DNA of 64,000 bases from Bryopsis sp. KO-2023 (Eukaryota; Chlorophyta; Ulvophyceae; Bryopsidales; Bryopsidaceae). The stretch is from contig BSYQ01000003.1 of the NCBI GenBank assembly GCA_030272585.1, positions 7,626,001 to 7,690,000 on the forward strand, read 5' to 3'. The position numbers and the translations under genes are program-made. The notes under the pieces were generated by a model that worked only from the letters and a program-made list of their open reading frames with translations, was not told where the DNA came from and searched no databases. Below are positions 13,503 to 19,453 of this stretch, piece after piece; within the stretch, counting starts at the first letter, position 1, and every line of letters begins with the position of its first letter.

Positions 13503-13510
13503 CCTGTGAT
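13503..13510. repeat. Target-site duplication, left copy (CCTGTGAT)
   Basis: Eight bases CCTGTGAT directly abut the CAGTG terminus of MITE copy 1. The identical octamer abuts the CACTG terminus of MITE copy 2 at 19446-19453. Eight-base duplications are characteristic of hAT-superfamily insertion. Confidence 0.8.
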
Positions 13511-13829
13511 CAGTGTATTTTTTTTCGATTTCACTGGCCCCAAAGTGGCCCTGAATTTGGCCATTTCATCTAGTTGTGGCCCTTTTGTGGCCCAATTTGT
13601 CCGAAAAAAAAAGAATGTGGCCCCAACTTAAAAAACAGAAATTACAAGGCTTGGTGTTTATATAGCATTTACTTAATGTTGTTGGTTTTGATTTTTGTGG
13701 AAACTCGATTGATTTCTTGGATGTGGCCCTGGCCTTACAAAGTTTGGGTGAATGTGGCCCTTTTGTGGCCCCAGAATTTGCCATTCTGATTTGTTTGGGG
13801 GCCACAATGGGCCACAAAAATATACACTG
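13511..13829 (+). mobile_element. hAT-like MITE, copy 1
   Basis: 319 bases with terminal inverted repeats beginning CAGTGTATTTTTTT. The right end reads AAAAATATACACTG. Near both ends are repeated GTGGCCC and CCTTTTG motifs resembling the subterminal binding sites of hAT transposases. Closely similar to copy 2 over almost its whole length. Reading frames through it, including the run-on of the adjacent minus-strand frame, are incidental. Confidence 0.85.
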
Positions 13830-14114
13830 GACAGCTCCCAGGCGCTCACTGGTCCAAAGAGATCCTCGTTCTCGCATTTCTGAATCGAGGACAGGGCCAG
13901 GGAAAATATATCCCCGAGGGCTTGGGAAATCGCCTCCTCTACCCGCGATTCTGCCTTCGTTGAGGTCTGTTCGCATTGCAGCAGACGACGTCCGCAAATC
14001 GAAACCTCGAACAAACTCCATGCTAATCAACAGCGCAGACTCAGCCATGAAAACCGTCATGTTCTCCATCTTACCATTCAACAGCAACAGGATTCCCACG
14101 GCAAATCGCAACAT
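13830..14114 (-). pseudogene. 5' exon(s) of a gene cut off by MITE copy 1
   Basis: Minus-strand coding-like sequence arranged head to head with the CDK. One frame starts at an ATG at 14114 and encodes a hydrophobic N-terminus. Another, open from about 14025, encodes a helical, acidic segment ending KCENEDLFGP at 13850, directly before a canonical GTGAGC donor (13849-13844). The MITE begins only 14 bases beyond that donor, and no continuation is found on the far side. The donor is phase 0, the same phase as the acceptor of the minus-strand exon at 18989, so both pieces may derive from one gene. Function unrecognised. Confidence 0.4.
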
Positions 14115-14361
14115 CTTTCTTCACTTTGGATCGAACGCAGAACAGCACACGACCAGTGCAGCAATCCCTCGATTCTTGTAGGAAGGCTGCAACTCATGAT
14201 GCGACGGCACGCCGAAGACAACGTCGCGTTCTTGGCGGCGATGTTACCCTTCGCAAGGGGGTGGGGTGCGTGCGAGATATATACGGCCTCTCGGGTGTAG
14301 TTGGCGAGTGTCCTTGCGAAAACCCTGAAGGTCCGTGTTAGTTTGGTGCGTTTATGGAGAA

Positions 14362-17173
14362 ATGGAGCTCTACAAGTTTGCGGAGACAGACAAGTTGGGC
14401 GAAGGCACCTTTGGCACGGTCTTCCAAGGGAGCGAGATTTCCTCGGGCCGGACGGTGGCGGCGAAGAGAGCGAAGAGCAGTGTAAGGCCTAAATCCCCGT
14501 CAGTTGCAGACTTCGCGCTTCTGTGGGATTCTTGTGTGCGCGTGTTGTCGAGTCAAATACCCTGGGTTGTATTATGTTTCGGAGAGACTCGAGCATCCGG
14601 TCGTGGCCTCAGTTATTGCTCACTTTTCTTACGACAGGCTTGCCAAGACGAGGGCATTCCAGTGACAGTTATCCGCGAAGTCGGTATGTTGAAATTGCTG
14701 AACCAGGAGGGTGAGCACATTGTAAGGTGCGTGTATCGATGGCACCCTCTCTCGCTCATCTCTTGACTGAACTTGTTAACTAACTTGGCTAACTTGGCTT
14801 CGTTTCGCTGCAGGCTCGAAAACCATTTCTTCGAGGAGGAGAAAGATCCTAGCGTGCTTTTGGTGAGGATGCGGTTCTGCTTTTTTTTCTCCCTGCATGC
14901 CTATTGTGGGTTTTGACGTCTTTTTTCGAATGCAACGCGACCTGTCGTGATGGAACTTCTTTCTGTGATCCGTCAAGGTTTTCGAGAAGCACGAGTGTGA
15001 TATGAAAAAGTTCGCCGACAAGCACTGTTCCAGATTCCCTGGCAGCGCCAAGAATGGGTCGCTGAGGCCGACACTGATAAAGGTACGTCAACCTCCCGTT
15101 CACGTCGAATAACGAGCGGTCCTGGAAAAATATACCAGGTGTCTTGGTGGTGGTGGTGGTGGTGGTTTGCTGTTTGAATTTTAAGATTGTTCTATTAGGC
15201 TTTATGGTTTAAAAAAAACAAGAAAGTAGTTTGGAAAAAGAAAGATATATTTCATGGATAGCCCAAAATAAATTTTCTGGCTGGAGTGTTTGGTGTCTTT
15301 TCTTCTTCTTTTTTTTTCTGGTGGGGGGGGGGGGGGGAAGGTGGCAGATATATTGATATGTGTTTATCCATGCTTGAAAGATGTTAATTTTTATACATTC
15401 TATATATTTTTTAGTATATTTTTCTTTTTTATATATTTTTTGTATATTTTTCTACCTGATTGCTAAAGAAAATTACTAATATGTGTCGGGTGAACACATG
15501 CATTCTATCGTCTGTGTTGATTTGTGACACTGGCATGACACTGCCCTGTTGAGTTGGCATGCGAGTGTTAAAAAAACACACTTTTGTGAGCAGCAAATTT
15601 GCTTTTCTTTTTGTTTTTGGTTAAGTTGAAGCAAGATAATTTCGTCTTTCTTGCTTTGCTTTGATTGGAAGCGGGTAGGTTCCCCACTCTTCTAAATGTG
15701 TCCTGCTCAGCTCAATATTTTTGCTGTTGTTGGCTTCTGCAGCACTTGATGAAAGAGTTGCTGATCGGAGTCAATCAGCTGCACTCGCAATGTGTGGCGC
15801 ATCGGGATCTCAAACCGCAGAACATCCTCGTTTCAACCAAACCGAATAGCAAGCCAGTCGTGAGGATCGCAGATTTGGGTATGGCGAGGAATCTGACGAT
15901 GCCCATTTCGACCTACACACATGAGGTAATTCGCAGAGGCTCCGCGTATTTTTGGCTGTGTGAAATTCTGAGATCTCAGTGAAACGATATGCATGAGCGT
16001 TTCTGAGGAGGGGTTCTGGGTTTTTTTTGTTTCGTTTGATTTGACAGGATTTTTGAGTTTCCAGTGCTTCGATGTTTCAATAGTGGGGATGTGGATTCTG
16101 ATTTATTGTGTGTGTGTGTTTTGATTAGGTAGTGACGCTCTGGTATAGGGCTCCTGAAATTCTTCTGGGGGGCCACTACACCTATCAAATTGACATGTGG
16201 AGTGTGGGCTGCATCTTCGCGGAGCTCTTCCTCGGGGTGAGTTCGGATGAATATATTTTCGGCCACAGTGTGTCCGTTGCTTGGTAATTTATTTGTGTTT
16301 CCTCTCGGTGGGGTTGAAAAATTTATGTTTCTTTTTTGTTTGCCCAACACACAGAAACCTCTGTTCCGTGCGGATTGCGAGATCTACCAGCTTATCAACA
16401 TATTCGAGATGCTGGGGTTGCCGAACGAAGAGATCTGGCCTGGTGTCACGAAGCTTCCATGTTGGTGAGGTTTTCCACGAACCCTTAATCTCTGTTGGGG
16501 GATTTGATTTTTACCCCGGCTGCTTTTATCGGGCCTTTCTTCAATTTGACCTTGGAAAATTGTTAAAACAGGAAACCCCATGCGCACCCCATTGGCTTCT
16601 GAATTGCTTCCGAAACTCGTTCTTTGGAAGCAATTCAGGAGCAAGCTGAAGTGTGTGTGTGTTTTTTCTTGATTTTTTTCTTGTGGATTTTGCAGGCATG
16701 AGTATCCTCGATTTAAACCTGGAAAATTGAACACGAAGATGGAGGAGTGCATGAATGGCGATAACGATGCGTTGGATCTGCTCGTGAAAATGCTGCACTG
16801 CAATCCCTCGCAGAGAATTCACGTAAGCTTGAAGAAATGGAAAACGGAAAAATCTAAAAACCATTAAACACCTTCTAAACCAACAATGATAGGATTTTTT
16901 TCTTTTTGACCCCGTTTGTATTTTCAAGTTTTTCACTATCCCAACCTGCTTTTTTTGCCCTCATAATTTTGTGTTTTTTGGATTATATGTTGGGAGGATA
17001 TCTGCGAGTTACTGTGGTGACATGCTCTTGAAATTAATTGGTTGATTAAATATCAATCAATGCCAGTTTGTTATGAAATAAATGGTGTTGTGGTTCATTT
17101 GCAGGCTTTCGATGCCCTCCAGCATCCGTATTTCACTGCAAGGATTTTAGAAACCAGCCAATCTCGAGGCTGA
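14362..17173 (+). CDS. Cyclin-dependent kinase, divergent CDC2-like
   Basis: Ser/Thr kinase expected to need a cyclin partner. Nine exons: 14362-14481, 14638-14726, 14814-14862, 14978-15082, 15743-15925, 16129-16236, 16355-16464, 16696-16822, 17105-17173. They join in frame to 319 residues, close to the usual CDK length of about 300. Landmarks: Gly loop GEGTFGTV (13-20), Lys35, PSTAIRE-equivalent PVTVIRE (48-54), HRDLKPQN with Asp143, DLG in place of DFG (165-167), T-loop Thr180 in [14 protein letters not shown], and a C-lobe ending QHPYF. The inhibitory tyrosine next to Thr16 (CDK1 Tyr15) is Phe17. The cyclin helix matches neither PSTAIRE nor PPTALRE. It lies wholly inside the composite element and shows no frame damage. 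Confidence 0.9.
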
Positions 17174-18570: not shown

Positions 18571-18989
18571 TCAAGAATCTTCTTGAGGCGGAATGTTAGA
18601 AATTGCTGGTCCCAACGCCGTGGACATTTTGGACGCCAACAACAATGTCGCAGTGGTTATTGTTTTTTCGTCCATGTACTGGCCTTCTGCCAAAGACAAT
18701 GGTGACTTTAGGATTCCCTTGACCTGTGTGCTCTCTGGAAGAGCTGGCGCAGCGGGGGGCTTTCTCGCTTTGGAGGGTGTTTCGAGGGAGCCACCAGGTG
18801 AATAATTCTTCTTTGTTACTGAGATCGAACGAGGAATGGAGTTGTTCTCTGCAGCGTTACCTCGACTTCGGTGTCCAGACCTCGCAGGAGGTTGTCGACC
18901 GACACCTTCACATTATGAATCACCCATTCGTTGCGGTCTCTTATTTCGGCCGCCACCTCGAAGACCAGGGGCCTTTGTCTCTCCAAGGT
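18571..18989 (-). pseudogene. 3' exons of a gene cut off by MITE copy 2
   Basis: Minus-strand exon starting at 18989 after a TTGCAG acceptor, 43 codons (TLERQRPLVFEV onward) to a possible GTAACG donor at 18861. A last block of about 80 residues then ends at the stop at 18571. The tail is Pro/Lys/Ala-rich and contains KGILKSP, resembling motifs of chromatin or phosphatase-docking proteins, but no family is recognised. No upstream exon is seen: the sequence 5' of the acceptor runs into MITE copy 2 within about 90 bases. The intron between the two blocks would be unusually short (about 50 bases). It may be the downstream part of the gene whose start lies at 13830-14114. Confidence 0.4.
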
Positions 18990-19075
18990 CTGCAACACAC
19001 GATAGAGGCCTTCTCACAGTTCACTTGCCAAAGAAAGAATTTTCTCGAAAACCGAAACAGAGCTAATGTGCACAC

Positions 19076-19445
19076 CAGTGTATTTTTTTTCAATTTCACT
19101 GGCCCCAAAGTGGCCCTAAATTTGGCCGTTTCATCCAGTTATGGCCCTTCGTGGCCCCAATTTGTCCGAAAAAAATAGAATGTGGCCCCAACTTCAAAAA
19201 CAGAAATTACAAGGCTGGGTGTTTATATAATGTTGTTGGTTTTGATTTTTGTGGAAACTCGATTGATTTCTTGGATGTGGCCCGGGCCTTACAAACATCG
19301 GGTGAATGTGGCCCTTTTGTGGCCCCAAATTCATCTTGTAATAAAACGTTTTGGCCCTTTTGTGGCCTCAAAATTTGCCATTCTGAATTTTCGGGGGGCC
19401 AAAATGGGCCAAAAGGGCCACAATGGGCCACAAAAAAATACACTG
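19076..19445 (+). mobile_element. hAT-like MITE, copy 2
   Basis: 370 bases in the same orientation as copy 1. It starts CAGTGTATTTTTTTTC and ends AAAAAAATACACTG, giving inverted termini of about 14 bases. It differs from copy 1 mainly by substitutions and an extra GGCCCTTTTGTGGCC-type block near 19350. Subterminal GTGGCCC/GGGCCAC motifs are more numerous than in copy 1. Confidence 0.85.
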
Positions 19446-19453
19446 CCTGTGAT
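19446..19453. repeat. Target-site duplication, right copy (CCTGTGAT)
   Basis: Identical to the octamer at 13503-13510 and placed directly after the CACTG end of MITE copy 2. A chance match of eight bases at exactly this position has a probability of about 1 in 65,000. Confidence 0.8.

Follow-up and report, generated by a model that had tools for sequence, protein, structure and literature searches.

The stretch of DNA considered here, hereafter the window, comprises 64,000 nucleotides of the green alga Bryopsis sp. KO-2023 (GenBank assembly GCA_030272585.1, contig BSYQ01000003.1, positions 7,626,001 to 7,690,000 of the forward strand). Within it, two miniature inverted-repeat transposable elements (MITEs) enclose a protein kinase gene related to the cyclin-dependent kinases (CDKs), and the whole is bracketed by an 8-base duplication. 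The window lies on a contig that we call C3, and the entire assembly (91 Mb in 28 contigs, with a G+C content near 45% and an intron-rich genome) was searched for related sequences. The features of this composite unit, in window positions, are the following:

13503-13510, no strand: left target-site duplication CCTGTGAT (read from the sequence)
13511-13829, plus strand: left MITE, type A, 319 bp, beginning with CAGTGTATTTTTTTT and closing with TACACTG at 13829 (sequence, self-comparison and MITE alignment)
13830-13837, no strand: octamer GACAGCTC, probably the leftover half of the duplication at the left MITE's donor site (MITE-free continuity at related loci on contigs C1 and C5)
13830-14255, minus strand, approximate extent: fragment of a neighbour gene truncated by the left border (homology, frame read by eye)
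14362-17173, plus strand: predicted CDK-like protein kinase gene of 319 codons in nine exons (gene model, Pfam and relatives of solved structure)
14362-14481, 14638-14726, 14814-14862, 14978-15082, 15743-15925, 16129-16236, 16355-16464, 16696-16822 and 17105-17173, plus strand: predicted exons of the kinase gene
17978-18399, minus strand, approximate borders: older, diverged MITE relative, inverted with respect to the two MITEs (self-comparison; also in the other copies and partly in the C1 and C5 relatives)
18824-19075, minus strand, approximate extent: fragment of a neighbour gene whose part beyond the border resembles a SpoIIIAA-type ATPase (homology, exon read by eye)
19068-19075, no strand: octamer GTGCACAC, probably the leftover half of the duplication at the right MITE's donor site (sequence, C1 and C5 loci)
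19076-19445, plus strand: right MITE, type B, 370 bp, closing with TACACTG (sequence, self-comparison and MITE alignment)
19446-19453, no strand: right target-site duplication CCTGTGAT (read from the sequence)

The two MITEs are direct repeats with an identity of 92% (154 nt) and 94% (106 nt) in their two longest ungapped stretches. The initial annotation had put matching octamers directly outside the outer ends and unmatched sequence at the inner ends, and both observations are right, the former to the base. As GACAGCTC and GTGCACAC match neither CCTGTGAT nor one another, neither MITE of the window has a duplication of its own. Two elements of the same family stand near each other around DNA that belongs to neither; for a single fixed position, a perfect match of 8 bases has a chance probability of about 1.5e-5 (simple arithmetic with equal base frequencies). 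The inverted MITE relative inside the cargo is diverged and predates the composite, because parts of it also occur in the C1 and C5 relatives.

The kinase gene had been described as having nine exons, and as a reading frame it is real: the sequence-based gene model joins the nine exons by eight GT-AG introns, and the 319 codons contain no internal stop. The predicted protein has a kinase domain (PF00069, 196.2 bits), its best relatives of solved structure are CDKs (top score 242 bits), and the domain is nearest to the CDKs. Motifs associated with CDKs are a PSTAIRE-like helix, HRDLKPQN and a T-loop threonine; read by eye, the predicted protein has residues other than the expected ones in this set.

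Near copies of the cargo occur at two further places, both on C3, at about 7.51 Mb and 7.33 Mb, and in a BLAST comparison with window positions 11001-22000 both start exactly at 13511. The 7.51-Mb copy is the second cargo copy for which the initial annotation had proposed a search. It has the same MITE ends with a different perfect 8-base duplication, CGGCTCAC, directly outside both of them and, as in the window, none inside. Its similarity to the window stops at the end of the right MITE (plus one base by chance), beyond which the flanks are dissimilar. When joined, the flanks of this copy match C3:7444371-7445088 through the junction with 96% identity, and there a single CGGCTCAC lies within about 310 identical bases without any MITE. 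This locus is a duplicated target without the insert, that is, the unoccupied site of the 7.51-Mb insertion. The 7.33-Mb copy has the left MITE and only the first 34 bp of the right one, which is interrupted by other repeats; the remainder was not found in the approximately 11.5 kb beyond. Over the cargo, the three C3 copies differ by 0.92-1.05% in substitutions.

Two side observations concern the surroundings of these copies. The interruption at 7.33 Mb (L060, L067, L011; C3 ~7.3255-7.3315 Mb) consists of two identical 273-bp direct repeats with 118-bp inverted repeats outside them, and the same structure holds a long frame that is retrotransposon-like by appearance. The other observation is a roughly 77-bp sequence to the right of the 7.51-Mb copy (L071, query 724-800), which recurs at many genomic places, often in same-strand pairs some 6.8-6.9 kb apart, like the ends of a larger element. 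By appearance it is also tRNA-like; ARAGORN (bacterial code) and Rfam returned no match in the window, L071 or L073, and its identification as a tRNA was dropped.

The MITEs themselves fall into types that follow the cargo. In an alignment of 13 rows (the five MITEs of the composites and eight near relatives selected from 29 solo rows), type A comprises the three left MITEs and type B both complete right ones, with diagnostic columns in both halves, though without a clear diagnostic site in the outermost ~17 left and ~50 right columns. Any two left MITEs are 1-2 bases apart and the right ones 4 of 325, as against 5-6.5% between left and right. An 11-bp deletion is common to the two right MITEs and absent from the eight solo rows shown. 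A 43-bp deletion, equally absent from those rows, is common to the left MITEs, but the right MITE at 7.51 Mb has it too, through either recurrence or exchange, which limits its diagnostic use. A 34-row tree, which skipped L005, L034, L039, L048 and L055, was set aside since one solo group stood on a long branch, probably owing to wrongly oriented rows; we rely on pairwise counts between the composite MITEs and their nearest solo copies.

More distant relatives of the cargo, with an identity that is mostly 73-90% but greater in some short segments, are located on C1 and C5, where seven border loci were read. The left border is continuous without a MITE at all four loci read for it (C1 9.73 Mb and C5 1.13, 0.78 and 0.99 Mb), and so is the right border at all three (C1 9.73 and 9.61 Mb and C5 0.97 Mb). 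The C1 and C5 loci have flanks in common, and as the C1 flanks are shared among related loci, they look like the ancestral surroundings. The MITE-free borders suggest two ordinary MITE insertions, accompanied by the duplications GACAGCTC and GTGCACAC, respectively. The regions at C5 0.78-1.37 Mb and C1 9.61-9.74 Mb (L012, L014-L017, L019-L028) contain diverged, partly broken duplicates of the kinase region, neighbours included, whose borders lack these MITEs; several of the C5 kinase relatives are partial or broken.

As for the MITE family, a perfect 8-base duplication accompanies 28 of 29 solo loci (L030-L058) in a scan that tried several offsets of the element ends and retained the best. The scan had a 30th row, L029, which corresponds to the right MITE of the window; it has no duplication of its own and was left out of the solo count. 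Among five further solo loci, three (L006-L008) have perfect duplications, L004 matches at 5/8 positions, and L005, whose right end is decayed, shows no matching duplication. Overall, 31 of the 34 solo members examined carry their own perfect duplication, of the 8-bp length that characterizes hAT elements. Duplications of 8 bp are also produced by other superfamilies. A pattern search for the MITE ends found 116 places in the genome, and among the 100 listed the sole other direct pair less than 30 kb apart is C1:9324631/C1:9335267 (L074, L004; 10.6 kb). It is at most a possible second composite, given the 5/8 duplication of L004 and the cut right end of its partner.

A candidate transposase source lies within the 7.51-Mb copy, where it follows cargo position 18616. 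This element of 3,695 bp (C3:7514276-7517970; L018/L059/L010) has CAGTGTATTTTTTTT ends and is MITE-like in sequence on either side; it is flanked by a duplication of its own, GTCCCAAC, and contains a single open frame of 762 residues. Its other copies are an open one on C8, which is 99% identical, and a broken one on C1. Genome hits to the hAT dimerisation family include many of equal score, in frames of 350, 774, 784, 788 and 839 aa, and such equal-scoring hits with long open frames suggest recent hAT activity.

Taken together, the structure of the unit, two distinct outer duplications, one unoccupied site, MITE-free related borders and the inheritance of the MITE types with the cargo are established. 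Because duplications lie only outside in two copies, similarity is bounded by the MITE ends, the flanks differ and an empty site exists, we consider it very probable that the unit is a macrotransposon, in which the outer ends of two MITEs were used jointly and the intervening kinase-bearing DNA was moved. The initial annotation had proposed just this for the window, and the second copy with CGGCTCAC and its empty site lend the proposal support.

The following course of events would account for the macrotransposon. At a donor of the C1/C5 type, two hAT-type MITEs of like orientation would have inserted to the left and to the right of the kinase gene, creating the duplications GACAGCTC and GTGCACAC. 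A transposase acting in trans, most likely from the 3.7-kb element with the same ends, would then have brought together the two outermost ends, the left MITE supplying its left end and the right MITE its right end, and moved everything between them. Each insertion would have made a fresh 8-bp duplication, namely CCTGTGAT in the window, CGGCTCAC in the 7.51-Mb copy and, probably, a third one in the copy at 7.33 Mb. The increase in copy number may have come about, for example, by movement of one of two replicated copies or by gap repair from the sister, with the kinase gene presumably a passenger.

Several findings weigh against this reading. The annotation's suggestion of an empty site is borne out for the 7.51-Mb copy and not for the window, where a search of the assembly with the joined flanks returned only the two flanks themselves. 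A donor locus with both MITEs, likewise suggested, was not found in the assembly, the related loci being without MITEs, and a search of the assembly for an excision footprint gave only one-sided hits. The missing donor is no defining failure because a lost donor would look alike. At 7.33 Mb, the cut in the right MITE precludes a check of the outer duplication. The solo MITE L006 on C8 equals the left MITE of the 7.51-Mb copy at 338/338 aligned bases, so that type A alone is no marker of the composite. Further points concern the transposase: the 762-residue frame matches the hAT dimerisation region PF05699 with an E value of 2.7e-4 and 21.1 bits, under the cut-off of 21.4; its sequence matched no solved chain; and hits to the hAT dimerisation family number at least 150 across the genome, often within long open frames, so that another transposase source is possible. 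The 3.7-kb element, linked to the composite only by its ends, is the best candidate. The hAT type that had been assigned to the MITEs is a probable one, based on their 8-base duplications and CAGTG ends and on the Pfam match slightly under the cut-off.

Which other routes could have led to the same arrangement? A circle of cargo and one MITE might have recombined homologously into solo MITEs resident at 7.64 and 7.51 Mb, in which case the outer duplications would be the residents' own. The MITEs are direct and similar enough to recombine, type A occurs among solo copies as well (L006 being identical over the aligned bases), and the recurrence of the 43-bp left deletion in the right MITE at 7.51 Mb may reflect exchange. 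Such recombination should, however, yield mosaic MITEs, whereas both complete copies have type A on the left and type B on the right across the diagnostic columns of both halves, and the 11-bp deletion common to the two right MITEs is absent in the eight solo rows shown. Two such events would need type-matched residents or crossovers outside the diagnostic columns (roughly within the first 17 or the last 50). As the unoccupied site at 7.44 Mb also lacks a MITE, though a later resident is conceivable, we regard recombination of a circle as very unlikely.

Aberrant transposition during replication, with reversed-ends transposition, re-replication and repair as in maize, seems to us similarly improbable. 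According to the excerpts consulted on maize, insertions so made have transposon ends at their borders and can later act as macrotransposons. Here, however, the order of the cargo is the same as in its relatives, both MITEs point the same way, and each border still shows where the original insertion probably took place; the simpler outer-end route accounts for the copies seen, leaving aside the origin of the first unit. Hardly credible, finally, is an ordinary segmental duplication in which the copied stretch contained two MITEs by coincidence and the octamers match by chance. The C1 and C5 relatives of the cargo are themselves duplicated segments without MITEs, but the similarity of the C3 copies is bounded by the MITE ends, there are two different perfect duplications and the empty site is continuous; chance octamers are ruled out by the different duplication of the second copy together with its empty site.

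The macrotransposon reading concerns the movement of the kinase gene, which was, judging by the gene model, moved whole; the activity of the moved copies is no part of the claim. In the 7.51-Mb copy, a base is missing shortly before the last exon ends, which gives an altered, shortened C-terminal end; in the copy at 7.33 Mb, exon 1 is short of 9 bp. Nonsynonymous and synonymous changes among the three copies number 10:0, 10:4 and 12:4, with a neutral site ratio near 3.7:1. There is thus no sign of constraint since mobilisation in counts that are too few to prove its absence, and in view of these counts we make no claim of function for the moved copies. Against the C1 relative, the ratio of nonsynonymous to synonymous rates (dN/dS) is 0.28-0.31.

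Both MITE sites seem, when read by eye, to lie just inside introns of the neighbour genes. The part of the right neighbour outside the border is SpoIIIAA-type ATPase-like (Pfam 43.9 bits versus a cut-off of 27), although its score of 58.5 against the NCBIfam equivalog is far under the cut-off of 281.3; the piece within the cargo lies outside the matched stretch. The part of the left neighbour outside the border has no Pfam match.

Among known systems, the closest are the macrotransposons of maize; for those of Ac/Ds and for composite insertions, the literature cites Huang and Dooner (2008) as well as Wang et al. (2022). The ends of a second maize case, White cap, are reportedly Tam3-like hAT elements. 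The comparisons that follow draw on excerpts of the papers named. In maize Ac/Ds, two linked hAT elements act jointly through their outer ends and leave an 8-bp duplication; excision and reinsertion are documented, and reinsertion can increase copy number (PMC9910405, PMC4270019, PMC3260210). The C3 composite resembles them in using the outer ends of two linked elements as one transposon with an 8-bp duplication. It differs in that both ends are MITEs and that it is known from sequence alone, whereas the maize cases have Ac, fractured Ac or Ds ends, many of them in selected alleles. White cap is a natural macrotransposon insertion that holds the whole of a gene, ccd1, at a place other than its progenitor site, and was later amplified by tandem duplication (PMC6553525, PMC8895983). 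Like White cap, the composite carries a complete gene; unlike it, whole units were here reinserted at separate sites of one contig.

Pairs of MITEs that mobilise the DNA between them are known from bacteria as TIME-COMPs, which are Tn3-family elements (PMC13367494) and thus share the principle but depend on a different transposase class. In Anopheles, the mixed ends of AgaP2-P12MITE have been explained by a proposed macrotransposition between two linked elements (PMC1562414); that case, unlike the C3 composite, belongs to the P-element family, has no gene cargo and is a hypothesis only. The initial annotation had considered that a MITE-bounded unit with a complete kinase gene in an alga would be new. 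Gene-carrying macrotransposons as such are not, as White cap demonstrates, whereas for a eukaryotic MITE-bounded one with a complete gene none was found in the open-licence literature searched, which is weak evidence of its absence since few subscription papers were covered.

The C3 composite differs from these systems in that MITEs form both of its ends, complete units occupy separate sites, an empty site exists and one copy harbours a possible autonomous partner. The 9.6-kb unit at 7.51 Mb, with its two MITE ends, nearly complete kinase gene and transposase-like frame, might even be a self-sufficient gene-carrying transposon, which we think rather doubtful; if true, it would be a eukaryotic counterpart of bacterial composite transposons, able to amplify a cell-cycle-type kinase gene. 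More generally, the composite suggests that MITEs, commonly thought too small for gene carriage, can provide both ends of a transposon that carries a gene, and MITE-bounded macrotransposition would be a route to the dispersed duplication of complete genes, introns included. Beside the macrotransposition documented in maize, it offers a natural case from an alga that combines several lines of evidence, namely two insertions with different duplications, an empty site, MITE-free borders and a candidate transposase source.

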